A stretch of DNA of 64,000 bases from Rhodopseudomonas palustris. GTDB lineage: Bacteria; Pseudomonadota; Alphaproteobacteria; Rhizobiales; Xanthobacteraceae. The position numbers were made by a program, and so were the translations under genes. Positions 36,303-52,721 of the stretch are shown here, piece by piece (the first letter of the stretch is position 1; each line of letters begins with the position of its first letter). The notes beneath the pieces are model-generated. The model was not told the origin of the DNA and did no database searches. It saw only the letters and a list, made by a program, of their open reading frames with translations. The stretch spans positions 620,001-684,000 of the forward strand of contig NZ_CP041387.1 in NCBI RefSeq assembly GCF_007005445.1, read 5' to 3'.

Positions 36303-39300
36303 TCACCCTCCAGACACCAGCATTGCGCCCGCGGCTCGCCGCCTGGCCGCACGGGTGAGTTTGAAGCCCTCGACCAGGCCGTAGATCGCCGGGATCACGA
36401 TCAGCGTCAGCAGCGTCGACGACACCATGCCGCCGATCATCGGCACCGCGATCCGCTGCATGATCTCGGAGCCGGTGCCGCTGCTCCACAGGATCGGCAT
36501 TAGACCGGCCGTGATCGCCACCACGGTCATCATCTTCGGTCGGACCCGCTCGACCGCGCCTTCCATGATCGCATCCTGCAAGTCGCGCCGCGTCAGGGGC
36601 CGGCCCTCGGCCGCGCATCTGACCTTCGCGGCGGCCAGCGCGTGATCGAGATAGATCAGCATCACCACGCCGGTTTCGGCGGCGACGCCGGCGAGCGCGA
36701 TGAAGCCGACCACCACCGCGACCGAGAGGTTGAAGCCGAGCGCCCAGATCATCCACAAACCGCCGACCAGCGCGAACGGTAGCGACAGCATCACGATCAG
36801 CGTTTCGGTCAACGATTTGAAGTTCAGGTACAGCAGCAGGAAGATGATCGCGAGCGTCAGCGGCACCACGACCTTCAACCGGGCTGCGGCGCGTTCGAGA
36901 TACTCGTACTGGCCGCTCCAGGTCACGTAGGCGCCGGGCGGGAAGCTGACGCCGGCCTGCACTGCCTGCTTGGCGTCGGCGACGTAGCCGCCGAGGTCGC
37001 GGTCGCGGATATCGACATAGATATAGGTCGCGAGCTGGCCGTTCTCGGTGCGGATCGAGCTCGGGCCGCGCGTCGGCTGCACCGTCGCCACCTCGCCGAG
37101 CGGCACCGCGCCGCCGGCCGGCAGCGGCACCAGCACGTCGCGGGCGATTCCTTGCGGATCGTCGCGCAGCTCACGCGGATAGCGCATGTTGACGGTGAAG
37201 CGCTGGCGGCCTTCCACCGTCGTGGTCACGGTCTGGCCGCCGAGTGCGGTGGCGATGGTGTCCTGCACATCCTGGATCGCGAGCCCATAGCGCGCCAGCG
37301 ACGTGCGGTCCGGGACGATCTCCAGGTAGTAGCCGCCGATGGTGCGTTCGGCATAGGCCGAGGAGGTACCGGGGACGGTCTTCACCACCTGCTCGACCTG
37401 TTTGGCGAGGCGGTCGATCTCGACCAGATCGGTACCGATCACTTTGACACCCACCGGCGTGCGGATGCCGGTCGACAGCATGTCGATCCGCGCCTTGATC
37501 GGCATCGTCCAGGCGTTGGAGACGCCGGGGAATTGCAGTGCCTTGTCCATCTCGGCGATCAGCCCGTCCGTGGTCAGGCCCTGTCGCCATTCCGACTTCG
37601 GCTTGAGATTGATCACCGTCTCGAACATTTCGGTCGGCGCCGGGTCGGTCGCAGTCGATGCGCGGCCGGCCTTGCCATACACCGAGGCGACCTCAGGAAA
37701 GCCGCGGATGATGCGATCCTGCACCTGCAGCAACTCGGCGGCCTTAGTGATCGACAGACCGGGCAGGGTGGTCGGCATGTAGAGCAGCGTGCCTTCGTCG
37801 AGCGACGGCATGAACTCGGTGCCGAGCTGGCGCGCCGGCCAGATCGAGATGCCGAGCACCACCAGCGCCAATACGATCACCAGCGTCTTGGCGCGCAGCA
37901 CGCCGCGGATCACCGGGCGATAGATCCAGATCAGCGCGCGGTTGATGATGTTGCGATGCTCCGGCACGATCTTGCCGCGGACGAAGATCACCATCAGCGC
38001 CGGCACCAGCGTCACCGACAGCAGCGCGGCCGCCGCCATCGCGAACGTCTTGGTGAAGGCGAGCGGCCCGAACAGCCGCCCTTCCTGCGATTCGAGCGTG
38101 AAGATCGGCAGGAACGACACGGTGATGATCAAGAGGCTGAAGAACAGCGCAGGCCCGACCTCGGAGGCGGCCTCGATCAGGATCGCGACGCGAGACTTGC
38201 CCGGCTCGGCGCGCTCCAGGTGCTTGTGGGCGTTCTCGATCATCACGATCGCGGCGTCGACCATGGCGCCGATCGCGATCGCGATGCCGCCGAGGCTCAT
38301 GATGTTGGAGCCGAGGCCGAGCAGCTTCATTGCGGCGAAGGCCATCAGCACGCCGATCGGCAGCATCAGGATCGCCACCAGCGCGCTGCGGACGTGCAGG
38401 AGGAAGATGATGCACACCGCGGCGACCACCAGGCTCTCTTCGAGCAGGGTGTGCTTCAGCGTGTCGATCGCGCTGTAGATCAGCGTCGAGCGGTCATACA
38501 CCGGCACGATCTCGACCGATTTCGGCAGGCTGCTGGCGATCTCCTGGAAGCGTTTCTTGACGTGCTCGATCACATCGAGCGCGTTGACGCCGAAGCGCTG
38601 CAGCACGATGCCGCTGGCGACTTCGCCTTCGCCGTTGAGCTCGGCGATGCCGCGGCGCTCATCGGGGCCGAGCTCGACACGTGCGACGTCTTTCAGCAGC
38701 ACCGGTGTGCCGCCGCTGGCCTTCAGCACGATGTTGCCGAGGTCGTTGATGTCCTTGATGTAGCCTTTGCCGCGGATGACGTATTCGAACTCCGACAGTT
38801 CGACGGTGCGGCCGCCGACATCGGCGTTCGAGGCGCGGATCGCCTCGCGCATCCGCGCCATGGTGATGCCGCGGTCGCGCATCCGCTGCGGATCGAGCAC
38901 CACGTTGTACTGCTTGACGAAGCCGCCGATGCTGGCGACCTCTGCGACGCCTTCGGCCTTGGCGAGCGCAAACCGCAGATTCCAATCCTGGATCGAGCGG
39001 GTGTCGGCGAGGTTCAGCTCCTTGGACATCACCGCATATTGATAGACCCAGCCGACGCCGGTGGCGTCAGGGCCGATGCTCGGTGCCACCCCGGCCGGCA
39101 GGCGTGAGGCGGCGCCGTTGATGAATTCCAGCACCCGCGACCGCGCCCAATAGATGTCAGTGCCATCCTCGAAGATCACATAGACGAACGACACGCCGAA
39201 GAACGAGAAGCCGCGCACCACCTTCGACTTCGGTACTGTCAGCATCGCGGTGGTCAGCGGATAGGTGACCTGATCCTCGATCACCTGCGGCGCCTGCCCG

Positions 39301-39461
39301 GGATATTCGGTGTAGACGACGACCTGGGTGTCGGAGAGATCCGGAATGGCGTCGAGCGGTAGATGCAGCAGGGCGTACAGGCCCGCTGCTGCGGCGAAGC
39401 CGGTGCCGAACAGCACCAGCAGCAGATTGCGCGCCGACCAGGCGATGATGCGGGCGATCAT
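36303..39461 (-). CDS. Heavy-metal RND efflux pump, CusA type
   Basis: This 1052-aa inner-membrane proton/metal antiporter belongs to the HME-RND subfamily that exports Cu(I)/Ag(I). The typical N-terminus LLLVLFGTGFAAAAGLYAL is followed by PLDAIPDLSDTQVVVYTEYPG. GGIAIAIGAMVDAAIVMIEN marks the TM4 proton-relay region, and WMIWALGFNLSVAVVVGF lies in the C-terminal half. Twelve transmembrane segments are expected. The start overlaps the end of the membrane-fusion gene by 4 nt. The name CusA is by family; metal specificity is inferred. Confidence 0.92.
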   Translation of the reverse strand: MIARIIAWSARNLLLVLFGTGFAAAAGLYALLHLPLDAIPDLSDTQVVVYTEYPGQAPQVIEDQVTYPLTTAMLTVPKSKVVRGFSFFGVSFVYVIFEDGTDIYWARSRVLEFINGAASRLPAGVAPSIGPDATGVGWVYQYAVMSKELNLADTRSIQDWNLRFALAKAEGVAEVASIGGFVKQYNVVLDPQRMRDRGITMARMREAIRASNADVGGRTVELSEFEYVIRGKGYIKDINDLGNIVLKASGGTPVLLKDVARVELGPDERRGIAELNGEGEVASGIVLQRFGVNALDVIEHVKKRFQEIASSLPKSVEIVPVYDRSTLIYSAIDTLKHTLLEESLVVAAVCIIFLLHVRSALVAILMLPIGVLMAFAAMKLLGLGSNIMSLGGIAIAIGAMVDAAIVMIENAHKHLERAEPGKSRVAILIEAASEVGPALFFSLLIITVSFLPIFTLESQEGRLFGPLAFTKTFAMAAAALLSVTLVPALMVIFVRGKIVPEHRNIINRALIWIYRPVIRGVLRAKTLVIVLALVVLGISIWPARQLGTEFMPSLDEGTLLYMPTTLPGLSITKAAELLQVQDRIIRGFPEVASVYGKAGRASTATDPAPTEMFETVINLKPKSEWRQGLTTDGLIAEMDKALQFPGVSNAWTMPIKARIDMLSTGIRTPVGVKVIGTDLVEIDRLAKQVEQVVKTVPGTSSAYAERTIGGYYLEIVPDRTSLARYGLAIQDVQDTIATALGGQTVTTTVEGRQRFTVNMRYPRELRDDPQGIARDVLVPLPAGGAVPLGEVATVQPTRGPSSIRTENGQLATYIYVDIRDRDLGGYVADAKQAVQAGVSFPPGAYVTWSGQYEYLERAAARLKVVVPLTLAIIFLLLYLNFKSLTETLIVMLSLPFALVGGLWMIWALGFNLSVAVVVGFIALAGVAAETGVVMLIYLDHALAAAKVRCAAEGRPLTRRDLQDAIMEGAVERVRPKMMTVVAITAGLMPILWSSGTGSEIMQRIAVPMIGGMVSSTLLTLIVIPAIYGLVEGFKLTRAARRRAAGAMLVSGG

Positions 39462-40852
39462 GGCTGGGCTCCGGCGTGGTCGTGAGCGTGATTGTGGGAC
39501 GACGCGGGCTGCTCAGCGGCGGGTGCATTTGATGCTTCGGCAAAGCCCTTCAGCGCCGCCTTCAGGTTGCTCTCGGCATCGATCAGGAAGTTGGCGGAGG
39601 TGACCACCGCTTCGCCTTCGTCGACCCCATGTTTGATCTCGACGATGCCGTCGCCGCGTCGTCCGAGCGTCACGGCGCGCGGCTCGAATCGGCCTTCTCC
39701 CTTGTCGATCAGCACGACGCGACGACTGCCGCTGTCGAGCACCGCCGAGGTCGGAATCGTCAGCACCGGCGCGTCGCCGCCGACGTCGATGTCGGCATCG
39801 ACATACATATCCGGGAGCAGCTTCAGATCGGGATTGGCGAGCTCGACCCGCAGTCGCGTGGTGCGGGTGTCGCGATTGACCTGCGGATAGAGCAACGCAA
39901 TCGTTCCGGACAGCGCGCGATCCGGGAAGGCGCGCGCCCAGATCGTTACCTTCTGGCCAACAGCGAGAGAGCCGAGATCGCGTTCCGCGACGTCGACCAG
40001 CGCCCACACCGTTGAGATGTCAGCGATCCGAAACAGCACATCGCCGACATTGGCGCGCATGCCCTCGGTGGCGTTGCGCTCCAGGACGATGCCGTCGCGT
40101 GGTGCACGCCACTGCACGCGCACAGGCGCGGTCCGCGTTCGATCCATCTCGGCGATGGTTTCCTCGGGCAGGTCGAGATTAACCAGCCGCTGCCGGGAGC
40201 CGCGGCCGAACGCCTCGATCGTATTGGTGGTCTTCGAGTTGATGGTCGACAGATATTCGGCGGCAGCCGACGCGATTGCCGAGCTGTAGATCTGCATCAG
40301 CGGCTGCCCGGCTTTGACGAAGCTGCCGGTGGTGACGTCGGTGATCTTCTCGATGAAGCTCTCGCTGCGCATCGCGATCACCGAGACGCGGCGCTCGTCG
40401 AGCTGGATCACGCCCGGCGCCTTCACCAGCACATGGAGTGCGCGGCGTTCGGCCGGTTCGGATTTCACGCCGCTGCGCTGGATCTTGCCGGGGGAGAGCT
40501 TGACCGTGCCGTCGGCACTGTCGTCGCCCTCATAAACCGGGACGTAGTCCATCCCCATCGAGTCTTTCTTCGGCACCTTGGAGATGTCCGGCAACCCCAT
40601 CGGGTTGCGGTAGTACAGAATCTTGCGATTGGGATCGGGCGCCGGCTTCGGCGCCGGTTGAACCGAGGGCTCGTCCGCTTCGTAGACCGGCAGAAAAGCG
40701 CGGCCGTGGGCGTCGGTCGCCGGCACGGCCGACCAGCGCGGCGCGCCGGATGGATCGCGGTAGTACAGCGGCGACCGCTCGTCCGCCGCGGCGGGCGCAG
40801 CGAGACAGAGTCCGATCAGAAACAGCAGGGATGGTGAGCGCAGTGAAGCCAT
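39458..40852 (-). CDS. Periplasmic adaptor of metal efflux, CusB type
   Basis: This 464-aa membrane-fusion protein has a signal peptide (LLFLIGLCLAAPAAA). Two tandem heavy-metal-binding repeats follow (YYRDPSGAPRW...FLPVY and YYRNPMGLPDI...DYVPVY), then the barrel-sandwich and HlyD-like domains. The end is His-rich (SSHNHAHDHAGAQP), which could chelate metal. It links the CusA-like pump to an outer-membrane channel; no CusC-like gene is in this operon. The first upstream codon at 40861 would add three residues. Confidence 0.9.
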   Translation of the reverse strand: MASLRSPSLLFLIGLCLAAPAAADERSPLYYRDPSGAPRWSAVPATDAHGRAFLPVYEADEPSVQPAPKPAPDPNRKILYYRNPMGLPDISKVPKKDSMGMDYVPVYEGDDSADGTVKLSPGKIQRSGVKSEPAERRALHVLVKAPGVIQLDERRVSVIAMRSESFIEKITDVTTGSFVKAGQPLMQIYSSAIASAAAEYLSTINSKTTNTIEAFGRGSRQRLVNLDLPEETIAEMDRTRTAPVRVQWRAPRDGIVLERNATEGMRANVGDVLFRIADISTVWALVDVAERDLGSLAVGQKVTIWARAFPDRALSGTIALLYPQVNRDTRTTRLRVELANPDLKLLPDMYVDADIDVGGDAPVLTIPTSAVLDSGSRRVVLIDKGEGRFEPRAVTLGRRGDGIVEIKHGVDEGEAVVTSANFLIDAESNLKAALKGFAEASNAPAAEQPASSHNHAHDHAGAQP

Positions 40853-40942
40853 GACGTGCACCGTCGCGCGCCGCGAGGGCGCAGTTCGATTGTCGGGAGA
40901 AGTGAGGGACGGCGGCGCCGCGGCTTGCGGCGCCGCTTGCGC

Positions 40943-41338
40943 CTACTTGAACGCCTTGACGATCACCTTGCCGGTGACGGTCTCGGGCTCGCCCTGGACC
41001 TTCGCCGACAGCGTGATCAGGTAGCGGCCCGCCATCGGCAGGTCGGTCTTGAAGGCGTACACGCCGGGCTCCGGCGACGGCAGCGCCGTCACCGGCGACA
41101 CCATGTCGGCCATGTTGTCCGGCGCCATGTCGACCCGGGTCTTGAAGATCACAGCGCCTTCCACCGGCTTGCCGGTGGTCTTGTGGACGAGGCGGATCGC
41201 AACGGTGACGTCGTCGCCCTTCTTCATCTCGGGGGTCTTGGGCTCGAACGCGTAGTCACCCGCGCCGGCCATTGCGGCGGTCGCAAACAGGGTGAGCGCG
41301 GCGGCGCAGGCCGCGGCGGTGCAGAATTTCGCAGTCAT
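40943..41338 (-). CDS. Periplasmic FixH/YtkA-like protein
   Basis: This 131-aa protein has a signal peptide (AACAAALTLFATAAMAGAG) and a single Ig-like beta-sandwich domain (VTVAIRLVHKTTGKPVEGAVI, AGRYLITLSAKVQG) of the FixH/YtkA type. Several methionines (RVDMAPDNMADMV, LPMAG) could bind copper. It lies 90 nt upstream of the cusB-like gene on the same strand, and probably belongs to the efflux operon as a periplasmic metal-handling protein. ATG 41338 has GGAG at the best spacing. Confidence 0.75.
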   Translation of the reverse strand: MTAKFCTAAACAAALTLFATAAMAGAGDYAFEPKTPEMKKGDDVTVAIRLVHKTTGKPVEGAVIFKTRVDMAPDNMADMVSPVTALPSPEPGVYAFKTDLPMAGRYLITLSAKVQGEPETVTGKVIVKAFK

Positions 41339-41435
41339 CATGATCTCCAAACGTGTCTGATCTCGTGCCGCGGCCGAACGGCACGCAGCAGCTATCGGCG
41401 CGGGCGAAACGCTCGCGCGGTTCGTCAGCAGGAGA

Positions 41436-41843
41436 TCAGACGCGAGGAGGCCGGAACGGCGGGCTGCCGGCGTGGTCCGGCACGAACAGGTCGGGCGGCG
41501 GGAACACCGTGCTGGTGCGTCGGGCGATGAATTTCACAGGCACCGTAGCAACCGGCGAGAAGCCGACTGAGGCGCCGACGCAGCAGAACCCGAGCGGGCA
41601 CTTGGCCGGATGTTTCGGCAAGGAGGGCGTTACTGGCGCCGCATCGTCGGTGGCGCCGTGGCAGGATTCGACGGCGGCGGTGACGTGGTCAGCGTGGGCG
41701 CCGGCGTGATGCTCGTGGTGCTGGATGTGCTGCGCGGCTTCCGCCGGTCCGGTAGGCAGCAAGACGGCCGACGCCGAGCCGACCGGCAAAGCCGCCAGCG
41801 ACAACGCCATCATCAGCGCCAAGATCGTCCGGAACAGTCGCAT
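41436..41843 (-). CDS. His-rich secreted protein, first gene of the efflux operon
   Basis: This 135-aa protein has a signal peptide (ILALMMALSLAALPVGSASA), then a His-rich stretch (AAQHIQHHEHHAGAHADH) and cysteines in CPLGFCCVG. It is not assigned to a family. The metal-ligand-like composition and position at the head of the RND operon suggest copper or silver binding in the periplasm. A CsoR-like palindrome lies about 130 nt upstream. Confidence 0.65.
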   Translation of the reverse strand: MRLFRTILALMMALSLAALPVGSASAVLLPTGPAEAAQHIQHHEHHAGAHADHVTAAVESCHGATDDAAPVTPSLPKHPAKCPLGFCCVGASVGFSPVATVPVKFIARRTSTVFPPPDLFVPDHAGSPPFRPPRV

Positions 41844-41968
41844 CCCGCTTTCAGCTCGCCAAGGGCTATCGGTCCTCCGATAGCACGTCGCCAGAGGTAA
41901 GACTTGTCACGCGTCAAATTCAAGACCGACGCTTATTGGAAGGCGCGACGGTCTCGATTTTGATGATC

Positions 41969-41985
41969 ATACCCCTGTAGGGTAT
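41969..41985. promoter_or_regulatory. CsoR/RcnR-type metal operator candidate
   Basis: ATACCC-CTGTA-GGGTAT is a perfect 6-bp inverted repeat of the TACCC...GGGTA type recognised by CsoR-family copper regulators. It lies in the 543-nt gap 41844-42386 between the efflux operon and the encapsulin gene, closer to the former. No csoR gene is in the window. Apart from this site and the dyad at 42246, I see only an AT-rich tract in the gap. Confidence 0.55.
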
Positions 41986-42245
41986 CCAGGCGCAAGGGTG
42001 CCGTTTCGGCGTCCGCAATGGGACTGGGCGCGCGCCGGGCGCCGCATCGAGCCCTTCCTGGTGCGGTGCACCGGTCCGGCGCCTACTGCCGGCCCTGCAG
42101 TGGCCGCCGGGACACAATTCCACATCCATCTAAAGAATTATTCTCGTGGCGCGAAGGAACTCATTCTTCGGCGGCAGCCTTCGAGAAAATGCACTGCTAA
42201 TCGCCTGGGCTGAATCGACAGCAATGAGTTGAGTGCATCTGTTAG

Positions 42246-42260
42246 TAGAAATCTATTCTA
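42246..42260. promoter_or_regulatory. AT-rich dyad upstream of encapsulin gene
   Basis: TAGAA-ATCTA-TTCTA is a perfect 5-bp inverted repeat in an AT-rich tract 127-141 nt upstream of the encapsulin start, in otherwise GC-rich DNA. A smaller hairpin, CGGCAC-TTAG-GTGCCG, lies at 42350-42365 next to the ribosome binding site. Either could control expression; the regulator is unknown. Confidence 0.35.
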
Positions 42261-42386
42261 TTAGTTGCATGTCCCGCGACAGATCGCTGACATGGACACA
42301 GATCAAATCTTCTCCTATTCCGCAAAGGTGGTCCATTTGAGCGACGCGCCGGCACTTAGGTGCCGCGGCGCCGAGGGTAGTGATTC

Positions 42387-43331
42387 ATGACTGAAGATAC
42401 CGAAGTTCGCAGGACGCTCGCTGAAGGCGCAGCGCGCCAACTCGCCAACGCGACTAAGACCCGTGCGCAGTGGGGAGGCATCTCCCCGCGTTGGCTGGTA
42501 CCGCTGTTGCAATGGACGCCGGTCGAGGCTGGTATCTTCCGTCTCAATCGCGTCAAGGAAACGCGCGGCGCGACCGCATCTGCTTCGTTCGACGTCGAGT
42601 GCAGCCCGCGGCGCGACCGCGATCCGGATCTGCCGGAGACCTTCGTCGACTACGAGGAGCATCCGCGCGAGTACTTCCTCAATGCGGTGACGACCGTGCT
42701 GGACGTCCAGACCCGCGTCTCCGACCTCTACAGCCATCCGTTCGATCAGATCCAGGAGCAACTCCGGCTGCTGATCGAGAAGGTCAAGGAGCGGCAGGAA
42801 GGCGAACTGATCAACAACGCCGAATATGGCCTGCTCGCCAACACCGCGCCGTCGCAGCGGATTTCGACCCGGAAGGGCCCGCCGACCCCGGACGATCTCG
42901 ATGAGCTGATCACCAAGGTCTGGAAGGAGCCGGCGTTCTTCCTGGCGCATCCGCGCGCCATCGCGGCGTTCGGTCGCGAGTGCACCCGCCGCGGTGTGCC
43001 GCCGCCGACCATCAATATGTTCGGCTCGCCGTTCCTCACCTGGCGCGGGCTGCCGCTGGTGCCGTCCGACAAGGTGCCGTTCGACGAAGCCGGCCGCACC
43101 AAGATCCTGCTGCTGCGCACCGGCGAGAAGAAGCAGGGCGTGGTCGGTCTGTTCCAGCCCGGCGTACCCGGCGAAGTGGCGCCGAGCCTGTCGGTGCGGT
43201 TCATGGGCATCAACCGCAAGGCGATCGCCTCGTATCTGATCTCGCTGTACTGCTCGCTGGCGGTGCTGACCGAGGACGCGCTCGGTGTGCTCGATGACGT
43301 CGAGGTCGGTACGTATCATGAGTACGCCTGA
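42387..43331 (+). CDS. Family 2A encapsulin shell protein
   Basis: This 314-aa HK97-fold shell protein of the SrpI-like family 2A encapsulins self-assembles into a nanocompartment. Recognised segments are AQWGGISPRWLVPLLQWTPVEAGIFRLN at the N-arm, VDYEEHPREYFLNAVTTVLDVQTRVSDLY, then LLIEKVKERQEGELINN and a C-terminal domain ending ALGVLDDVEVGTYHEYA. There is no signal peptide and no cNMP-binding insertion, which separates it from family 2B. It overlaps the desulfurase gene by 14 nt, the standard cargo arrangement. AGGG precedes the start. Confidence 0.92.
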   Translation: MTEDTEVRRTLAEGAARQLANATKTRAQWGGISPRWLVPLLQWTPVEAGIFRLNRVKETRGATASASFDVECSPRRDRDPDLPETFVDYEEHPREYFLNAVTTVLDVQTRVSDLYSHPFDQIQEQLRLLIEKVKERQEGELINNAEYGLLANTAPSQRISTRKGPPTPDDLDELITKVWKEPAFFLAHPRAIAAFGRECTRRGVPPPTINMFGSPFLTWRGLPLVPSDKVPFDEAGRTKILLLRTGEKKQGVVGLFQPGVPGEVAPSLSVRFMGINRKAIASYLISLYCSLAVLTEDALGVLDDVEVGTYHEYA

Positions 43332-45297
43332 GCCGACCCTGCCGCATCCGGGCTCGGCGGCTCTGCCGCAAGGCGGAGCGCTGCCGCATCCGGCGTCGCT
43401 GGAGCAGGCGTCCGCCGCAGCGGTCGGTGCACCGGATGTCGCCTCGATCGCGCGGCTGGCCAACGCGTTCTTCTCGGCGTTGCCGACCGGGGCGGTGCCG
43501 GAGCCCGGCGCCGCGCTCGGCTCGGCGCCACTGTTTGCCGCCGAGCCGCTGCACAATGCGATTCCAGGCACGCCGGCGCTATCGCCCTCCTATAAGCCGA
43601 ACCACAATCCCGGCGCGGCCTCGCCGACCCCCACCGTGGGCGCGGCGCGGCCGTCGGCACCGATCTTCGCGCTCGATCCTAATCTGGCGCCGGAGCCGAC
43701 CACGGCGGTTGGCTCGTTGCCGCAGGAGCTTAAGGTGCCGCTCGCGGCTCCGCCTGTGGCGCCGCCGCCTCCGTCTGCACCGGCGGTGCAGCCTGTGTTT
43801 CCGCGCGATACTGATCTGGCCGCGCTACCAGGCCGGCTCGACGAATCCCGCAGCTTCGTGCCGCGCAGCGTATTGCCGAGCGCGGGGTCATTCGGGGCCA
43901 ACGCTGCGGCGACGGCAGCTCCGCTGTATTTTCTCGCCGACAATCCGGCCCTGGCCCATGCGACGCCGGCATCAGCCGCGCCGCCCCGTGTCGATACCTT
44001 CGACCTCACCGGGCTGGCGCCGCAGCATCGCCCCGACGTGCATGTGCTCGATCTGTCCGGCGCGCGGCCGTTCGACGCCAACGTCTTCAAGCGTGATTTC
44101 CCGATCCTGCGCGAGACCGTCAACGGTCGGCCGCTGGTGTGGCTCGACAACGGCGCCACAGCGCAGAAGCCGCAATGCGTGATCGATCGGTTGGTGCAGT
44201 TCTACACGCACGAGAACTCCAACATCCATCGTGCCGCCCACACGCTGGCGGCACGGTCGACCGATGCCTATGAGGCGGCCCGCGACAAGGTGCGCGGCTT
44301 CATCAACGCGCCCTCGGTGAAGGATATCGTGTTCGTGCGCGGCGCCACCGAGGCGATCAACCTCGTGGCGCAGGCCTGGGGCCGCCGCAATGTCGGCGAA
44401 GGCGACGAGATCGTGGTGTCGCATCTCGAGCACCACGCCAACATCGTGCCGTGGCAGCAACTCGCCGCCGAGAAAGGCGCGCGCTTGCGCGTCGCGCCGG
44501 TCGACGATCACGGCCAGATCCTGCTCGACGAATACGAAAAGCTGCTCGGGCCGAAGACCAAGATCGTCGCGTTCACGCAAGTCTCCAACGCGCTCGGCAC
44601 AGTCACCCCGGTCGCCGAGATGACCGCGTTGGCGCATCGCCATGGCGCCAAGGTGCTGGTCGACGGTGCCCAAGGCGTCTGCCACATGCCGGTCGACGTC
44701 CAGGCGCTGGATGTCGATTTCTACGCCTTCTCCGGTCACAAGATGTTCGCGCCGACCGGCATCGGCGTGCTGTACGGCAAGGCCGATGTCGTCGAAGCGA
44801 TGCCACCGTGGCAGGGCGGCGGCAACATGATCGCCGACGTCACCTTCGAGAAGACGATCTTCCAGGGGCCGCCGGATCGGTTCGAAGCCGGCACCGGCAA
44901 TATCGCCGATGCGGTCGGTCTTGGCGCGGCGATCGATTACTTGACTCGCATTGGCATGGCCAACATCGCGGCGCATGAGCACGAGTTGCTCGCCTATGGC
45001 ACCGAGCATCTGCTGACGGTGCCGGGCCTCAAGCTGATCGGCACCGCGCGCGAGAAGGCAGGCATCCTGTCGTTCGTGCTCGACGGCTGCCGCAGCGAGG
45101 ATGTCGGCAAGGCGCTCGATCGCGAAGGTATCGCGGTGCGCGCCGGCCATCATTGCGCCCAGCCGATCCTGCGCCGGTTCGGGCTGGAAAGCACGGTGCG
45201 GCCGTCGCTCGCTCTCTACAACACCCATGACGACATCGACGCGCTGGTCGACGCGTTGCGGCGATTGCAGAGTGGGCGAGGTGTGCGCGGGAGCTGA
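43318..45297 (+). CDS. Encapsulin cargo cysteine desulfurase with long disordered N-terminus
   Basis: This 659-aa protein has two parts. Residues 1 to about 253 are a low-complexity Pro/Ala-rich region with short conserved-looking islands (IARLANAFFSALPTG near 44-58, APLYFLADNPALAHA near 201-215, DVHVLDLSGARPFDANVF near 240-257). This is the expected cargo-loading extension. Residues 254-659 are a complete group II (SufS-like) PLP-dependent desulfurase with K475 in SGHKMFAPTG and the active-site cysteine C613 in GHHCAQP. It should release sulfur from cysteine inside the shell. ATG 43318 lies within the encapsulin gene. Confidence 0.93.
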   Translation: MSTPEPTLPHPGSAALPQGGALPHPASLEQASAAAVGAPDVASIARLANAFFSALPTGAVPEPGAALGSAPLFAAEPLHNAIPGTPALSPSYKPNHNPGAASPTPTVGAARPSAPIFALDPNLAPEPTTAVGSLPQELKVPLAAPPVAPPPPSAPAVQPVFPRDTDLAALPGRLDESRSFVPRSVLPSAGSFGANAAATAAPLYFLADNPALAHATPASAAPPRVDTFDLTGLAPQHRPDVHVLDLSGARPFDANVFKRDFPILRETVNGRPLVWLDNGATAQKPQCVIDRLVQFYTHENSNIHRAAHTLAARSTDAYEAARDKVRGFINAPSVKDIVFVRGATEAINLVAQAWGRRNVGEGDEIVVSHLEHHANIVPWQQLAAEKGARLRVAPVDDHGQILLDEYEKLLGPKTKIVAFTQVSNALGTVTPVAEMTALAHRHGAKVLVDGAQGVCHMPVDVQALDVDFYAFSGHKMFAPTGIGVLYGKADVVEAMPPWQGGGNMIADVTFEKTIFQGPPDRFEAGTGNIADAVGLGAAIDYLTRIGMANIAAHEHELLAYGTEHLLTVPGLKLIGTAREKAGILSFVLDGCRSEDVGKALDREGIAVRAGHHCAQPILRRFGLESTVRPSLALYNTHDDIDALVDALRRLQSGRGVRGS

Positions 45298-45324
45298 TGG
45301 GAAGATGTCGCGTGTGAGGATGTC

Positions 45325-45404
45325 GTCATTGCGAGGAGCGAAGCGGCGAAGCTAGCCAGCTTCGTGCACTGAGCTGGATTGCTTCGCCTTCGGCTACCAA
45401 TGAC
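45325..45404. repeat. REP-like inverted repeat, family A
   Basis: Arms starting GTCATTGCGAGGAGCG and ending CTACCAATGAC form a second copy of the palindrome seen after boxC, here in the gap between the desulfurase and serine acetyltransferase genes. Confidence 0.75.
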
Positions 45405-45456
45405 GGGGAGAGATTGTCACTGAACGCTGTAAGGCCAACTCACCGGAGCCGCCCGC

Positions 45457-46404
45457 ATGTCGCAATCCGCCGAGCCCCGTGTCGTCACTGAGCCAGCATG
45501 GGACCTCGGCGAAATCGTCGCCGAACTCGCAGGGCTCCGCGCCATCTCCCAGCGGCGGCGCTATCGCAGCCGATCGCTGCCGGAATTGCCGTCGCGCGAA
45601 GCGGTAGCCGGTATCGTCGATGCTTTGGTGGCGGCGCTGTATCCGCGTCACTTCGGGCCGGCGGGGCTGTCGGAAGACACTCTCGACATCTTTGTCGCCG
45701 ACACCATCGAGCAGGTGCTGCGCCGGCTGCGCCGCGAGGTCGGCCGCGAACTGCGCCTTGCCGATCTCGACGGCGCCGCCAAGCCCGGCGAGATCGAACA
45801 GCAGGCGCTGACCATCGCGGCGGATTTCGCCCATGACCTGCCGCGCATCCGCGCGCTGCTCGACAGCGATATCCGCGCCGCGTTCGATGGCGATCCGGCA
45901 GCGAAGAGCCTGGACGAAGTCGTATTCTGCTATCCGGGTGTCGCCGCGATGATCCGGCATCGCATCGCGCACCGGCTGTACGTGCTCGGGGTGCCGATGC
46001 TGGCGCGGATCGTCGCGGAGATCGCCCATGCGCAGACCGGCATCGACATCCATCCCGGCGCGACCATCGGCGAGAGCTTCTTCATCGATCACGGCACCGG
46101 CGTCGTGATCGGCGAGACCGCGCGGATCGGCAAGCGGGTGCGGCTGTATCAGGCGGTCACGCTCGGGGCCAAGCGGTTCGAGACCGACGAGCACGGTCGC
46201 ATCGTCAAAGGCGGCGACCGTCATCCGATCATCGAGGACGAGGTCGTGATCTATGCCGGCGCCACGGTGCTCGGGCGGGTGACGATCGGGCAGGGCTCAC
46301 AGGTTGGCGGCGGCGTCTGGCTGACGCGCGATGTGCCGCCGAACAGCGTCATCACCCAGGCCAAGGCGCGCTATGACGCCTTCGAGGACGGTAGCGGTAT
46401 CTGA
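45457..46404 (+). CDS. Serine O-acetyltransferase (EpsC/CysE-like)
   Basis: This 315-aa enzyme makes O-acetylserine, the carbon skeleton for cysteine. An N-terminal helical domain is followed by a left-handed beta-helix with hexapeptide repeats: TGIDIHPGATIGESFFIDHGTG, VVIGETARIGKRVRLYQ and the catalytic loop region TLGAKR...RHPIIEDEV. The family is the longer EpsC-like type found next to encapsulin desulfurases. It is 159 nt downstream of the desulfurase gene on the same strand, so the locus joins cysteine synthesis and cysteine desulfuration. Confidence 0.92.
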   Translation: MSQSAEPRVVTEPAWDLGEIVAELAGLRAISQRRRYRSRSLPELPSREAVAGIVDALVAALYPRHFGPAGLSEDTLDIFVADTIEQVLRRLRREVGRELRLADLDGAAKPGEIEQQALTIAADFAHDLPRIRALLDSDIRAAFDGDPAAKSLDEVVFCYPGVAAMIRHRIAHRLYVLGVPMLARIVAEIAHAQTGIDIHPGATIGESFFIDHGTGVVIGETARIGKRVRLYQAVTLGAKRFETDEHGRIVKGGDRHPIIEDEVVIYAGATVLGRVTIGQGSQVGGGVWLTRDVPPNSVITQAKARYDAFEDGSGI

Positions 46405-46578
46405 GCTGGCAAGCCTGCGAAAGAATTTTCTCCCGTTTGGCGCTTTCGGGTCAGATATTGGTCGCGATTTGCTGTCAGTGCGACGGCCACGTTGTTTTTA
46501 TTCTCCAGGCATTGCGATGCGGGAGGCCGGCCGGTAGTCGATAGGGAACGCCGCCACGCGGGCGGTCACCTGGAATCG

Positions 46579-47700
46579 ATGAACGAGCCCATCATGAATG
46601 CTCCCTGGCAACCGCCCGCGGGAGAGCGCCCCGCCTTCGTATCGACGCAGCCGACCACCGGTATCCTGATCGACCGTGTCCGCAAGGTGTATTCGGCACG
46701 GAAGAGCAGCGCCGAAGTCGTCGCCCTCGACGATATCAGCCTGACCGTTCCGAAAGGCTCCATCCTCGGCGTGATCGGCCGCAGCGGCGCCGGCAAGTCG
46801 ACGCTGATCCGGCTGATCAACGGGCTGGACAAGCCGTCGAGCGGCCGCGTCGTCGTCAACGGCGTCGAAATCACCGCGCTGTCCGAACGCGATCTGCGCA
46901 CCGCGCGGCGCTCGATCGGCATGGTGTTTCAGCATTTCAACCTGCTGTCGTCGCGCACCGCCTACGGCAATGTCGCACTGCCGCTCGAGATCGCCGGCAC
47001 GCCGAAAGCTGAGATCGAAAAGCGCGTGCTGCCGCTCTTGGACATGGTCGGGCTCGCCGACAAGCGCGACCGCTATCCGGCGGAGCTGTCCGGCGGTCAG
47101 AAGCAGCGCGTCGGCATTGCCCGCGCACTCGCCACCGAGCCGTCGGTGCTGCTGTCGGACGAAGCCACGTCCGCGCTCGATCCGGAAACCACCGACCAGA
47201 TTCTCGAGCTATTGAAGCAGATCAATCGCGATCTGCATCTCACCATACTGTTCATCACCCACGAGATGGCGGTGGTGAAGGCGCTGGCCGACCGCGTCGC
47301 GGTGATCGAAGGGGGCCGCATTGTCGAGGACGGCGCAACCTTCGACGTGTTCGCCACCCCGCGCCACGAGGTGACGCGGCGGTTCGTTTCGTCGGTGACC
47401 GGCAGCGGCGCGCCGGACTGGCTCTTGGAAAAGCTGCAGCCGCATCAGCCGCCGGGTGGGCAGGCGGTGCTGCGCATCACCTTCAAGGGCAGCGACGCCA
47501 ACCAGCCGCTGCTGTCGCGGGTGTCGCGCGAGCTCGGCGTCAATCTCAACATTCTCTCGGGGCAGGTCGAGATGATCGCCGGCCATCCGTTCGGCACGCT
47601 GATTGTGTCGCTCGACGCCGCGCCCGAGGTGCTGCGCCAGGTGATCGCGCAACTGTCGGCCGGCAACAACCTGGTGGAGCAGCTCGGCTATGTCGCCTGA
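46579..47700 (+). CDS. metN: Methionine ABC transporter ATPase MetN
   Basis: This 373-aa ATPase belongs to the MetNIQ D-methionine/L-methionine importer. Walker A is [11 protein letters not shown], the signature is [15 protein letters not shown] and Walker B is [13 protein letters not shown]. The C-terminal 85 residues form the NIL/ACT-like regulatory domain ([19 protein letters not shown]) that senses methionine by trans-inhibition. Its end overlaps metI by 11 nt. An N-terminal extension of about 30 residues precedes the ATPase core; a second in-frame ATG lies at 46594. Confidence 0.92.
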
Positions 47701-48358
47701 ACTCATTCGCATGATCGCGTCGTCGACGCTCGACACCCTCTACATGGTCGGGTTGGCGGGGTTGTTCGGCACGCTGATCGGCCTGCCGCTCGGCATCTTC
47801 CTCGCCACTTCTCAAACCGGTGAGCTGTTCGCCGCACCGATCGCCAATCGCCTGATCGGCGTCGTCGTCAATGCGACGCGTTCGACGCCGTTCATCATCC
47901 TGGTGGTGGCGATCGTGCCGCTGACCCGGCTAATCGCCGGCACTTCGATCGGCACCGCGGCGGCGACCGTGCCGCTGACGATCGCTGCGATCCCGTTCAT
48001 TGCCCGCGTCATCGAAGCGGCGATCCGCGAGGTCGATCACGGCCTGATCGAAGCGGCGCGTGCGTTCGGCGCCAGCCCGCTTCAGATCGTCCGCAAGGTG
48101 CTGTTGCCCGAAGCGATGCCGGCGGTGACGATGGCGCTGACGCTGACCATCGTCAGCCTGCTCGGCTATTCGGCGATGGTCGGTGCCGTCGGCGGCGGTG
48201 GTCTCGGCGACCTCGGGATTCGCTACGGCTATCAGCGCTTCATGCCGGAGGTGATGCTGACTGTGGTGCTGGTGCTGATCGCGCTGGTGCAGGGCGTGCA
48301 GACGCTCGGCGACACGCTGGCGCGCAAGCTCGATAAGCGCCGCATCCGCCGTCACTGA
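47690..48358 (+). CDS. metI: Methionine ABC transporter permease MetI
   Basis: This 222-aa five-to-six-span permease of the MetI type begins with [24 protein letters not shown]. It carries the cytoplasmic EAA-type coupling helix [24 protein letters not shown] and the family segment [20 protein letters not shown]. It overlaps the end of metN and precedes metQ by 28 nt, in the usual metNIQ order. Confidence 0.93.
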
Positions 48359-48386
48359 TTTCCATGTCTCGACCAGGAGCTTCTCA

Positions 48387-49160
48387 ATGCGCCGTCTTGC
48401 CGTTTCCCTGATCGCGCTGGCCTTCGCCGGCGCCGCCCATGCCGAGACCATCCGGGTCGGCGTCACCGCCGGTCCGCACGCCGAGATCCTCGACGTGGTC
48501 AAGAAGGTCGCCGCCGAGCGCGGCCTTGACATCAAGCCGGTCGAGTTCACCGACTACGTGGTGCCGAACCAGGCGCTGGCGCAGAAGGAGCTGGAGGCCA
48601 ATTCGTTTCAGCACGAGCCGTATCTGAAAGCGCAGGTCGCCAAGACCGGTTGGACCATCGTCAAGGTCGCCAACACCATCGCGTCGCCGCAGGGCGTGTA
48701 TTCGGTCAAGGTCAAGGCGCTCGCCGATCTGAAGCCGGGCGCCACCGTGGCGATCGCCAACGATCCGTCGAACGGCGCGCGTGGCCTACAGATCCTGGCG
48801 CTGCACGGCCTGATCAAGCTGAAGGACGGCGTCGGCGCCACTGCGACGGTCGCCGACATCATCGACAATCCGAAGAAGCTGAAATTCGTCGAACTCGACG
48901 CCGCCCAGCTGCCGCGCTCGTTGCAGGACGTCGATCTGGTCTCCATCAACAACAACTACGCGGTGCAGGCCGGCCTCGATCCGTCCAAGGATGCACTCGC
49001 CCGTGAGAACGTCGAAGGCCCCTGGGTCAACATCATCGCGGTGCGCGAAGAGGACAAGGACAAGCCCTGGGTCAAGCAACTGATCGACGCCTATCACTCC
49101 GACCCGGTCAAGCAGTTCGTCGAAACCCGGTTCAAGGGGACTTATATCCCGGCGTGGTGA
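48387..49160 (+). CDS. metQ: Methionine-binding protein MetQ
   Basis: This 257-aa NlpA/MetQ-family periplasmic binding protein has the signal peptide RRLAVSLIALAFAGAAHA. It lacks the lipobox cysteine, so it should be soluble or otherwise held, unlike E. coli MetQ. Family hallmarks are FTDYVVPNQALAQKELEANSFQH, IANDPSNGARGLQILALHGLIKL and INNNYAVQAGL. It closes the metNIQ operon. A REP-rich intergenic stretch follows. Confidence 0.92.
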   Translation: MRRLAVSLIALAFAGAAHAETIRVGVTAGPHAEILDVVKKVAAERGLDIKPVEFTDYVVPNQALAQKELEANSFQHEPYLKAQVAKTGWTIVKVANTIASPQGVYSVKVKALADLKPGATVAIANDPSNGARGLQILALHGLIKLKDGVGATATVADIIDNPKKLKFVELDAAQLPRSLQDVDLVSINNNYAVQAGLDPSKDALARENVEGPWVNIIAVREEDKDKPWVKQLIDAYHSDPVKQFVETRFKGTYIPAW

Positions 49161-49189
49161 GGCGAAGCGACTAGGCTCCACACACAAAC

Positions 49190-49305
49190 GTCATCCCCCG
49201 CGCATGCGGGGGATCTAGTATTCAAGTACTTCAGCTATTCTAGCGCGGTCCGTTTCGCCAATGATTCCCTGGAATACTGGATCGCCCGCTTTCGCGGGCG
49301 ATGAC
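49190..49305. repeat. REP-like inverted repeat, family B
   Basis: Arms of 34 nt at 49190-49223 and 49272-49305 are nearly complementary: they start GTCATCCCCCGCGCATGCGG and end GCGGGCGATGAC. The middle is AT-rich. It lies directly after metQ in the 340-nt gap 49161-49500, which contains only this and the next repeat. Confidence 0.8.
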
Positions 49306-49357
49306 GGCAGCGATCGGTACGCGCGCCTGCTTCGCTGGTCAATCACGTCCTCTCCCC

Positions 49358-49441
49358 GTCATTACGAGCGCAGCGAAGCAATCCACAAAGCCTCGTGTAC
49401 GGAGCTGGATGGCTTCGTCGGCTTTGCCTCCTCGCAATGAC
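49358..49441. repeat. REP-like inverted repeat, family A
   Basis: Arms GTCATTACGAGCGCAGCGAA... and ...CTCGCAATGAC, with the shared CTGGAT-GGCTTCG inner motif, form the third copy of family A in the window. It is between the convergent metQ and PaaK-like genes. Confidence 0.8.
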
Positions 49442-49500
49442 GGTTCGGAGAGGTGCGGCGGAACGCTGACGCTCCGCCGCCTGTTCCTCCGTCTTCTTCC

Positions 49501-50838
49501 TCAGCTCCACACCCCGCTGCGCCGGTCCTCGACCCGCTTGGCCTTGTGCGTGGCGCGCGGCAGGGTGTCGGGCTTCAGCACCGAGACTGCGGCCGAGACG
49601 CCGGTGATGGCCTTGAGCTTGCGTTCGAACCGGTCGGCGAGCGTGTGAGTCTCGCCGTTGTAGCCGTGGATGTGCTCGACCTCGACGGTGAGACGGTCGA
49701 GGTGATTGATCCGGTCGACCACCAGTCGATATTCGCCGGTCAGCTCATGATCCTGCCGCGCTACGGCTTCGACGTCGCTCGGGAACAGGTTGACGCCCTT
49801 GATGATCAGCATGTCGTCGCGTCGGCCGTGGACACCGTTGAGCCGGATCGCGGTGCGGCCGCAGCGGCACGGCTCCGGATTGAAGCTGACGATGTCGCCG
49901 GTGCGGAAACGGATCATCGGCCGCGCTGTTTTCTGCAGCGTGGTCAGCACCATTTCGCCGCGGTCTCCCGGCTTCACCGGCTCGCCGCTGTCGGGATCGA
50001 TCACTTCGACCAGGATGTGATCCTCGGCCCAGTGCAGGCCATCCTTTTGCTCGCACATCCCGGCGCAAGAGCCGAAGATGTCGGACAGACCGTAGTAATC
50101 ATACACCGAGGCGCCCCACAGTTGCTCGATGCGGTCGCGGGTCTCCCGGATCGAGCCGCCGGGCTCGCCGGCGACGAAGATCCGGCGCACAGCAAGGTCC
50201 TTGCGCAGGTCGTAGCCTTCCTTGATGGCGGTCTCGCCGAGATACCAAGCGTAAGACGGCGTGGTCCAGATCACGGTCGCCTGGAACTGGCGGAGGATCT
50301 GCAGCAGCCGGTCGGACGGCAACGTGCCGGCGTGGATCGTCAGTGCGCCGAGCTTCTGCGCGCCGAGCACGCACGGTCCGCCGATGAACAGAGAGAAGTT
50401 CAGCGAATGCACGTAGCGGTCGCTCGGCCGCATCCCGGACGACCAGAACTGCCGCGCCTCGTAGTCGATCCAGCCGTCGAAATCGGCCTGCGTGAACGGC
50501 GAGGCGGTGGGCACGCCGGTCGAGCCGGACGACGCGGAGATATAGACGATGTCACGTTCCGGCACTGCGACGAGGTCGCCGAATGGCGGCACCGCGAGCT
50601 GGCGATCGCGCAAGCTGCGCTTGTCGATGAAGGGAAAGCGGCGGATGTCGCCCAGCGATTTGATCTGGCTCGGCGAGACCTTCGCGGCGTCGAACGCGGC
50701 GCGATAGGCCGGCGAGCCCGCATAGGCGTGGGCGACGTGCTTTTGCAGCAGCGACAGTTTCAGCGCGTCCCAGTCGGCGCGCGATTGGGTTTCGAGCTTG
50801 GCGTCCCAGTACGGGCGCTCGTCGGAAGTCGCGGTCAT
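49501..50838 (-). CDS. PaaK-like aryl/phenylacetate-CoA ligase
   Basis: This 445-aa adenylate-forming CoA ligase of the phenylacetate-CoA ligase family has the P-loop SASSGSTGVPT, YDYYGLSDIFG, the zinc-type cysteine pair in EPCRCGRTAIRL, and the hinge GRRDDMLIIKGVNLFPSDVE. The C-terminal ACT-like domain ends normally. The acid it activates is unknown; phenylacetate, benzoate-type or heteroaromatic acids are possible. It is 93 nt downstream of a MetQ-like gene, an unexpected neighbour. No paa oxygenase genes are nearby. Confidence 0.88.
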   Translation of the reverse strand: MTATSDERPYWDAKLETQSRADWDALKLSLLQKHVAHAYAGSPAYRAAFDAAKVSPSQIKSLGDIRRFPFIDKRSLRDRQLAVPPFGDLVAVPERDIVYISASSGSTGVPTASPFTQADFDGWIDYEARQFWSSGMRPSDRYVHSLNFSLFIGGPCVLGAQKLGALTIHAGTLPSDRLLQILRQFQATVIWTTPSYAWYLGETAIKEGYDLRKDLAVRRIFVAGEPGGSIRETRDRIEQLWGASVYDYYGLSDIFGSCAGMCEQKDGLHWAEDHILVEVIDPDSGEPVKPGDRGEMVLTTLQKTARPMIRFRTGDIVSFNPEPCRCGRTAIRLNGVHGRRDDMLIIKGVNLFPSDVEAVARQDHELTGEYRLVVDRINHLDRLTVEVEHIHGYNGETHTLADRFERKLKAITGVSAAVSVLKPDTLPRATHKAKRVEDRRSGVWS

Positions 50839-50931
50839 GTGCGGTGGTCCTGAATGCGGACGACCGGCCGTGGGGCCGGTCGCGCTATCGATGGAAGGAT
50901 GAACAGGCGATCGTTGCGACGGCGTCCGGTG

Positions 50932-51717
50932 TCACCAGGTGGTGAGAATGGTGCCGTTGAAGCGTTGCTCGGTGAAGGCCTTGACCTCCGGCGAGCGATA
51001 GATTTCGACGAACTTCTTCAGCGTCGCATTGTCCTTGTTCTTGGCCTGCACCGCGAACACCAGGTTCCAGTTGGTGTCGGCGCCTTCGAGCAGCAGCGCG
51101 CTCTTCGGGTCGAGCCCGGCGCTGAGCGCGTAGTTGAGATTGACCGCGGAGAAGTCGAGGTCGTTCAGCGAGCGCGGCAACTGCGCGGCGTCGAGTTCGA
51201 CGATCTTCAGATGCCTGGGGTTCTCGGCGATGTCGGCGATCGTCGCCTTGATGCCGATGCCCGGCTTCAGCTTGATCAGCCCGGCCTTCTCGAACAGTTG
51301 CAACGCCCGGGCGCCGTTCGACGGATCGTTCGGGATTGCGGCACTGGCGCCGTCCTTGATATCGGCCAGCGTCTTGACCTTGTTCGAATAGATCCCGATC
51401 GGCACGATGATGCTCTTGGCGATCGACACGATATCGTAGCCGCGCTGTGCCACCTGGTTGTCCAGATAGGGTTGGTGCTGGAAGTTGTTGATGTCGAGAT
51501 CGTTCTGCGCCAGCGCCGCATTCGGCACCGTGTAGTCGGTGAATTCGGTGATCTTCACCTCGATGCCCTGCTTGGCGGCGAGGTCGCCGGCGTAGCGCAG
51601 GATCTCGGCGTACGGACCGGCGGTGGTGCCGATCCGGACCACTTCGGTGCTGAAAGCCGGGGTCGCGGCGGTGAGCGCGGCGAAAGCGGCCGCGGCGAGA
51701 ACGAGTTTACGTGCCAT
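50932..51717 (-). CDS. NlpA/MetQ-family periplasmic binding protein (second copy)
   Basis: This 261-aa paralog of the MetQ at 48387 has a signal peptide ending TPAFS and no lipobox. Shared segments are FTDYTVPNAALAQNDLDINNFQHQPYL and IPNDPSNGARALQLFEKAGL. It has no adjacent ATPase or permease, so it may use MetNI from upstream or bind a different ligand. It is probably co-transcribed with the PaaK-like ligase. The 251 nt upstream contain a small GACCA/TGGTC hairpin and nothing else clear. Confidence 0.88.
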   Translation of the reverse strand: MARKLVLAAAAFAALTAATPAFSTEVVRIGTTAGPYAEILRYAGDLAAKQGIEVKITEFTDYTVPNAALAQNDLDINNFQHQPYLDNQVAQRGYDIVSIAKSIIVPIGIYSNKVKTLADIKDGASAAIPNDPSNGARALQLFEKAGLIKLKPGIGIKATIADIAENPRHLKIVELDAAQLPRSLNDLDFSAVNLNYALSAGLDPKSALLLEGADTNWNLVFAVQAKNKDNATLKKFVEIYRSPEVKAFTEQRFNGTILTTW

Positions 51718-51968
51718 GGGAATTCAACCTCGATATGTGACCATCTCGGTGGTCGTGGTTTGCGGGGAAACTATCGGCCGCTTGATCCGGCGGCCATTTC
51801 GAAATCTGCGGCGGAGCGAGAGCGGGATTTCCCGATCCTGCGCTGCCGCAGAAGATTCGTGTCGTGGGTGCGGGTCATGGTGCCGGCCGCACCCCCGCGC
51901 CGATCACGACGCGAAGGCGGCTTTGGCGAGCCGTATTTGACTGGGGTGAGAAGTGCTGCCGCTACGGG

Positions 51969-52160
51969 CTATTGCAGCCGCGGACGGCCTTCCTTCCAGC
52001 AGCGGGTTGCGGCCTTCTGGGCGGCGACCAGCGAACCGAACGACTGCCGCTCCAGACTGTTGAAGTCGTGATGCGCGGCGAAGAAGCAGAACTTGCGCCC
52101 GTCCCGGACGACGATGCCGGCGGTGCGGGCTTGAACTTCGATAACGTAAGCGTCGGACAT
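51969..52160 (-). CDS. Small conserved-looking hypothetical protein
   Basis: This 63-aa soluble protein (SDAYVIEVQARTAGIVVRDG...FCFFAAHHDFNSLERQSF) reads like a compact beta-alpha fold. It resembles short hypothetical proteins of Bradyrhizobiaceae, but I cannot name a family. The ATG has GGGAGAG-like sequence upstream. Its location is between the MetQ paralog and another small ORF on the same strand. Confidence 0.6.
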   Translation of the reverse strand: MSDAYVIEVQARTAGIVVRDGRKFCFFAAHHDFNSLERQSFGSLVAAQKAATRCWKEGRPRLQ

Positions 52161-52231
52161 GACTCTCCCACTGGCAAAGCCAGCGCCTTCTGATCTCTGA
52201 TGATGTCGGTGGTGTCGAAACGGTGTCGGCG

Positions 52232-52393
52232 TCAGCCGAGATTCATTCGACAGCTACAACAGAGGCCGGAGCGGGAGAGTGCGTGTCCCGACGAGATCAC
52301 GCCGCGCGAGGCCGAGACGGCCGTGATGAGCGCAAGCGGAGTACCGAATTGCGGTGCAGTTAAGTCAGCAATGATTGAGATGTTGGCGTTCAT
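52232..52393 (-). CDS. Small hypothetical protein
   Basis: This 53-residue frame (MNANISIIADLTAPQFGTPLALI...) starts at an ATG with GGAGATC upstream, which is chosen over a start 30 nt earlier. It has a short hydrophobic segment and a CCSC motif near the end. No family is recognised. The 328 nt that follow to 52721 contain nothing I can support. Confidence 0.35.
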   Translation of the reverse strand: MNANISIIADLTAPQFGTPLALITAVSASRGVISSGHALSRSGLCCSCRMNLG

Positions 52394-52721
52394 GAGCCGA
52401 TCTCCGTCAACAAAGGAGCCCACGAGCCGTGTCGTGGCGCTTTAGCGATTAAACCCGCGGCGCAAGCTGCTCCGTCAAATCCCGCGATCCGAGCTCACGA
52501 AGAACATCGGACGAGCCAACTCTGCCAAACGCGGATGTGAAGTCAACGTGCGCGGAAAAATAAGATCGATTTGGCGCCGGATCGCGCCAGTGGGAAAACG
52601 CCGGCGTCGGCGCATCGCGCAAAGAGGAATTTCTGCTGCGCTGCCGTCGGTGGCGACGTGGCCTCCGCCCGGCGCTCGGCGCTGCCGCCGTCGGAACGTA
52701 CGATCAGATTCGCGTGTGCGA

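Follow-up and report, generated by a model that had tools for sequence, protein, structure and literature searches.

The window analysed here is a stretch of 64,000 nucleotides from Rhodopseudomonas palustris (RefSeq assembly GCF_007005445.1, contig NZ_CP041387.1, positions 620,001 to 684,000 of the forward strand), in which genes for a family 2A encapsulin shell, a cysteine desulfurase and a serine O-acetyltransferase (SAT) are followed by metNIQ, the genes of a methionine importer. We consider that the unit at this locus is probably a three-gene “cassette” consisting of the shell, a packaged desulfurase (the cargo) and a dedicated SAT, and that metNIQ is its neighbour, because metNIQ is kept without the cassette, the cassette is kept without metNIQ, and the metN leader is conserved regardless of it. 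Shell, cargo and SAT form an already known, ordinary family 2A set, since a published survey puts SAT in the group of accessory genes with the strongest enrichment (PMC8346489) and since SAT and the shell occur in the same Rhodopseudomonas genomes. The six genes of an earlier sequence-only reading, which had joined all of them into one sulfur acquisition and storage block, were recovered at the same positions, all on the + strand (Table 1), with a 14-nt overlap of shell and cargo (43318–43331, cargo start ATG 43318).

Results

Sixteen Rhodopseudomonas genomes (G000–G015) were compared. The shell was found in 11 of them, and SAT (searched, like MetI, at E ≤ 1e-30) in exactly the same 11, being absent from the five shell-less genomes; two sets drawn at random would agree in this way once in 4368 times, which is no true probability since the genomes are related. 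MetI, counted at an identity of at least 88%, is also present in 11 genomes: seven times it adjoins the shell in the same order and on the same strand (G000, G002, G004, G005, G008, G014 and G015), twice it lies far from it (G001, G003) and twice it occurs in genomes that have no shell (G006, G011). In G001 and G003, the cassette and metNIQ are separated by about 1 Mb or belong to different contigs, and the match of the shell loci to the window is limited to shell, cargo and SAT. The two other shell genomes, G009 and G013, have no MetI at this identity. In G009, which has a 58% relative elsewhere, window positions 42387–46402 continue directly into 49500–51857, metNIQ being missing; in G013, where no relative was found, the shell contig ends inside SAT, and on an overlapping contig the long frame that comes next after SAT resembles, by eye, a TonB receptor.

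The reverse arrangement was seen when the window was compared with 14 DNA stretches of the genus. In the metNIQ-bearing, shell-less genomes G006 and G011, the DNA runs collinear with the window over 36318–41918 and then over 46490–52639, at 90–92% identity, the stretch with the three genes being absent. By these alignments, shell–cargo–SAT is a cassette of about 4.5 kb that a genome either has or lacks. An rpoB tree was built from 14 genomes (G009 and G013 were omitted, their rpoB being fragmentary). In it, G011 falls outside the group of G000, G004, G005, G006 and G015 (support 0.999) and is thus not the sister of G006; therefore, the absence of the cassette has more than one origin, unless recombination exchanged the site. 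The metNIQ tree pairs G006 with G005 (0.989), and the placement of G011 in it is poorly supported. Since the shell–metNIQ adjacency occurs in two clades, loss of the cassette would be a simpler reading than its gain.

The metN leader, of about 105 nt, is kept in all 11 genomes with metNIQ, including four where no shell adjoins it, and 44 of its 110 alignment columns are invariant. A hairpin is predicted before the start codon, in which 4 of 13 pairs are preserved by two-sided changes in one or more sequences and other pairs are broken in some sequences. No Rfam family came near the threshold for the leader, and a by-eye comparison revealed no evident element common to it and the shell upstream region. 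The idea that the leader is a widespread RNA was dropped, as it was found in the genus only: a 17-base pattern matched 10 of 296 genomes of the family, all in the genus, and a covariance model with strict filters matched 4 of 119, again all in the genus (of which five genomes were included in the draw). In our view, metNIQ is best understood as a resident neighbouring locus that has a control region of its own.

The wider comparison covered the best 80 loci of at least 561 confirmed shell relatives, that is, the shells nearest to that of the window. Of these loci, 78 yielded a clustered shell frame (L037 and L038 are outside the count), and the cluster names beyond shell, cargo, SAT and MetN were assigned from reading the sequences by eye; genes of such kinds are also annotated near the shells of Synechococcus elongatus (cysK, epsC, an Rrf2 regulator, a rhodanese) and Azospirillum (an XRE regulator, cysE). 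Within 5 kb of the shell, the cargo occurs in 71 of the 78 loci, SAT type 1 in 42 and SAT type 2 in 18; there are also cysteine synthase-like (17), XRE-cupin regulator-like (14), CGS-like (8), rhodanese-like (7), Rrf2-like (6), Sbp-like (6), SsuB-like (6) and CysA-like (3) genes. MetN is found at this distance in two loci, L003 and L004, both from Rhodopseudomonas, and weaker relatives of MetN, MetI and MetQ lie 6–9 kb from the shell in L049. Among the 49 loci having at least 5 kb on both sides, the cargo is present in all 49, SAT of either type in 38 and MetN in one.

These data bear out the sulfur context and the link of SAT to the shell that the sequence-only reading had proposed (11 of 11 shell genomes in the genus and 38 of the 49 wider loci). 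That reading had expected both SAT and metNIQ to be conserved neighbours and had made methionine import a part of the unit; this holds for SAT and fails for metNIQ, which adjoins the shell in 7 of 11 shell genomes, has its MetN near it in 2 of 78 loci and occurs, as does the cassette, in genomes lacking the other. Its further suggestion was that the packaged desulfurase receives cysteine by way of SAT, and this agrees with the cysteine synthase-like gene near 17 of the 78 shells and with the order cysK–epsC–srpI–cyd in S. elongatus.

Ten window genes between 42.4 and 54.8 kb were scanned with family models (Pfam at E ≤ 0.001, NCBIfam with its cut-offs). Sequence comparison places the shell, which is encoded by a single-copy gene, in family 2A: it scores 518.5 bits with the model NF041162 (encap_f2a, cut-off 380) and is aligned over nearly its whole length with solved family 2A shells (SrpI, 455 bits; top match PDB 8t6r, 470 bits over residues 7–313). 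It is also above the cut-off of the 2B model NF041163 (433.4 bits vs. 400), matching it in two stretches, the best of which starts from model position 209; Pfam detected the SrpI-like domain alone, and a cNMP-binding domain was not found. F272 and Y283 of the shell align with F262 and Y273 of SrpI, the residues of the three-fold cargo site which are described as lying near the cargo density (PMC8049743).

The cargo scores 860 bits with NF041166, the model of family 2A cargo cysteine desulfurases (cut-off 800), and 580.2 bits with the SufS-like model TIGR01979 (cut-off 475.1); the earlier recognition of a family 2A shell with its desulfurase cargo is thus confirmed. SufS-type enzymes align with its catalytic domain from residue 251 on, and the 250 residues ahead of it contain 40% Ala and Pro. 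The motifs bearing the pyridoxal phosphate-binding lysine (SGHK at 472) and the catalytic cysteine (RAGHHCAQP at 608) are present. An alternative in-frame ATG at 43294, located 24 nt upstream, would give a 38-nt overlap with the shell gene. Of 91 rows (in part redundant, and in some cases truncated at contig ends), 31 show a cargo-frame ATG at the 14-nt overlap followed by a long open frame; this partly follows from the codons of the shell C-terminal HEYA.

SAT exceeds the cut-off of the EpsC-type model NF041874 (173.1 bits vs. 150) and lies below that of the classic CysE model TIGR01172 (173.7 vs. 210.65). Elsewhere in the genome there are relatives of both the desulfurase and SAT (for the former, one at 52% over the catalytic domain and two weaker; for the latter, one at 37% and one weak), and metI of this locus is the sole one found there at E ≤ 1e-30. 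The repeat between cargo and SAT is present in nine of the 11 genus loci, including the window, and is not present in L135 and L141; it has 59 matches in its own genome, palindromes being counted on both strands, and may loosen or tune the expression of SAT.

Table 1. Features of the encapsulin locus and its surroundings in the window
Feature	Position	Strand	Basis and remarks
Stretch absent from the collinear G006 and G011 loci	41919..46489		Its genes are those of shell, cargo and SAT; replaced there by about 230 bp of different intergenic DNA
Shell upstream region	42100..42386	+	Short genus-conserved blocks (AAAGAAT; AATCTT and neighbours), short hairpin ahead of start codon; putative function
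Family 2A encapsulin shell protein (SrpI type), 314 aa	42387..43331	+	Family models, alignment
Cysteine desulfurase cargo, 659 aa	43318..45297	+	Family models, motifs; Ala/Pro-rich N-terminal ~250 aa and SufS-like domain
Cargo N-terminal motif SIARLANAFFSALP, residues 43–56	43444..43485	+	Resembles LARLANEFFS as given in PMC8049743
Cargo N-terminal motif ATAAPLYFLADNPA, residues 198–211	43909..43950	+	Resembles AASPYYFLDG as given in PMC8049743
Dispersed REP-like palindromic repeat	45323..45410		Between cargo and SAT; second copy 49352–49442
SAT, EpsC type, 315 aa	45457..46404	+	Family models; in 11/11 genus shell genomes
Conserved metN leader, CGTTGTTTTTATTCT...	46490..46593	+	All 11 genus genomes with metNIQ; outside cassette
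metN, methionine ABC transporter ATPase with NIL domain	46594..47700	+	Alternative ATG 46579; neighbour, outside cassette
metI, permease	47690..48358	+	NF008049, 227.6 bits, cut-off 212; neighbour
metQ, binding protein	48387..49160	+	TIGR00363, 238.7 bits, cut-off 228.85; neighbour

The best match of MetN is TIGR02314 (MetN), at 405.3 bits under a cut-off of 499.7. The start of metN is probably at 46594 rather than at 46579, because the first ATG is missing in two relatives. Two copies of MetQ were found in the genome, both in the window (48387–49160 on the + strand and 50932–51717 on the − strand). The second, 53% identical to the first, stands beside a PaaK-like CoA ligase gene (49501–51717 on the − strand for the pair), with no metN or metI adjoining on that strand. 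A 79% relative of the PaaK-like gene lies 3.3 kb from the shell gene in the distant locus L071, and in L131 (G011) this gene matches in two pieces and may be frameshifted.

Upstream of the shell, folding gave the hairpin a mean z of −1.4 in the genus (11 rows) and an average of −0.5 in 80 other rows (the rows are partly redundant), and a control stretch further upstream gave a mean of −0.23 over 91 rows; conservation of the hairpin beyond the genus was dropped, and we claim it as a genus feature at most. No Rfam match for a known riboswitch before the shell came near the gathering score, and a sigma-70 scan of 41850–49500 revealed no promoter-like site; by eye alone, a weak −35/−10 pair (TGGACA, 17 nt, TATTCC) can be read at 42293–42321. 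Control of the shell by an iron-type regulator was considered because the conserved AAAGAATTATTCT stretch upstream of it suggested an Irr/ICE-like motif. It was dropped: the palindrome which we assume to represent this motif has three matches in the window (at most three mismatches) vs. a mean of 2.12 in shuffles, two of them elsewhere and one at 42242–42256, upstream of the shell and away from AAAGAATTATTCT. At 41972–41990, an inverted repeat ATACCCCTGTAGGGTAT, which resembles a CsoR-type operator, precedes divergent genes of metal-efflux type (CusA/CusB-like by eye), and similar repeats stand in the cassette-less G006 and G011.

Discussion

The presented analysis suggests the following scheme for the cassette. 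The shell would self-assemble and take in the desulfurase by means of the long N-terminus with its two motifs. SAT would raise the level of O-acetylserine and, via a cysteine synthase encoded elsewhere, provide more cysteine, which the packaged desulfurase may convert into alanine and sulfur kept inside the shell. The metNIQ locus, resident downstream with its own leader, would be expressed independently and would not be needed by the system.

The links of desulfurase encapsulins to sulfur and SAT have already been published (PMC8346489, PMC8049743). The survey PMC8346489 lists 1281 family 2A operons with a desulfurase, SAT and rhodanese being the most enriched accessory genes. For S. elongatus, PMC8049743 reports that the cargo N-terminal domain is required for loading and that shell and cargo increase in sulfur starvation. 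The word “methionine” occurs in neither of these two main texts, and an encapsulin beside metNIQ did not come up in searches of open-licence papers, though the supplementary tables of the surveys may well list metN. Elemental sulfur has reportedly been found in an Acinetobacter encapsulin in work of 2024.

The scheme can be altered at its last step, so that the sulfane sulfur of the packaged desulfurase would be passed on to a special acceptor, for Fe-S or redox use, rather than stored. Such channelling was proposed from the rhodanese enrichment (PMC8346489), and it agrees with the rhodanese-like cluster near 7 of the 78 shells and with the rhodanese-domain gene after cyd on the S. elongatus plasmid. 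However, no rhodanese was found among the ten scanned window genes, and the introduction of a 2025 paper names desulfurase encapsulins sulfur storage systems (PMC12407261); we regard acceptor channelling at this locus as rather unlikely.

Several observations weigh against the three-gene unit or its suggested role. Shell, SAT and metNIQ are adjacent in 7 of the 11 shell genomes, and these belong to two clades with different outer flanks: G000, G004, G005 and G015 share the flanks of the window (the G015 contig starts at window position 41596), and in G002, G008 and G014 the match stops at the shell start and just past metQ (the G008 stretch has just 881 bases ahead of the shell). G007, G010 and G012 have neither the cassette nor metNIQ, as would be expected of a single block. 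Among six terminator-like sites in 41850–49500 (4.3 expected), none beyond chance separates SAT from metN. Finally, the S. elongatus knockouts grew without a defect under sulfur starvation (PMC8049743).

The adjacency and the joint absence, together with the recurrence of other sulfur-type genes near shells (CGS-like, Sbp-like, SsuB-like), could be taken as signs of a single module for acquiring and storing sulfur, which would comprise shell, cargo, SAT and metNIQ and import methionine as a sulfur source. We find this improbable: four shell genomes lack the adjacency, MetN is rare near shells in the wider loci, metNIQ with its leader is retained where the cassette is missing, and the leader has, by eye, no evident element in common with the shell upstream region. 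The linkage may be either selected or simply ancestral. It is equally hard to credit that, within a part of the genus, the cassette and the sole methionine importer have been joined in a larger, co-regulated sulfur module, and we give as little weight to its corollary, that the sulfur of imported methionine ends in the encapsulin store, with the seven-genome adjacency and the three-genome joint absence as its traces.

The three-gene cassette, with metNIQ as a neighbour, therefore remains our reading. On this reading, a purple bacterium carries an encapsulin sulfur compartment, and the idea that the encapsulin system includes methionine import needs correction. Moreover, close relatives with and without the whole cassette at one site represent natural “plus/minus” pairs for testing the physiological role of family 2A encapsulins that package a desulfurase.

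Comparison with known systems

According to its annotated record, the SrpI/CyD system of S. elongatus is a plasmid operon, cysK–epsC–srpI–cyd–rhodanese, with an Rrf2 regulator also near the shell. It shares with the window the family 2A shell, a desulfurase cargo whose N-terminus bears the two motifs also found here, and an adjoining EpsC-type SAT. In contrast, SAT lies downstream in the window and is followed by metNIQ, and the scan of ten window genes revealed neither a cysteine synthase nor a rhodanese. The structure entry 8t6r, from which alone this shell was compared with that of the window, represents what we take to be the sulfur-storing family 2A shell of Acinetobacter baumannii. The plasmid-borne family 2A locus of Azospirillum brasilense differs from the window in having a SAT annotated as cysE, a divergent XRE regulator and no metNIQ in a stretch of 14.9 kb; at the same time, it has, by its annotation, the same shell–cargo–SAT order and the same 14-nt overlap of shell and cargo.

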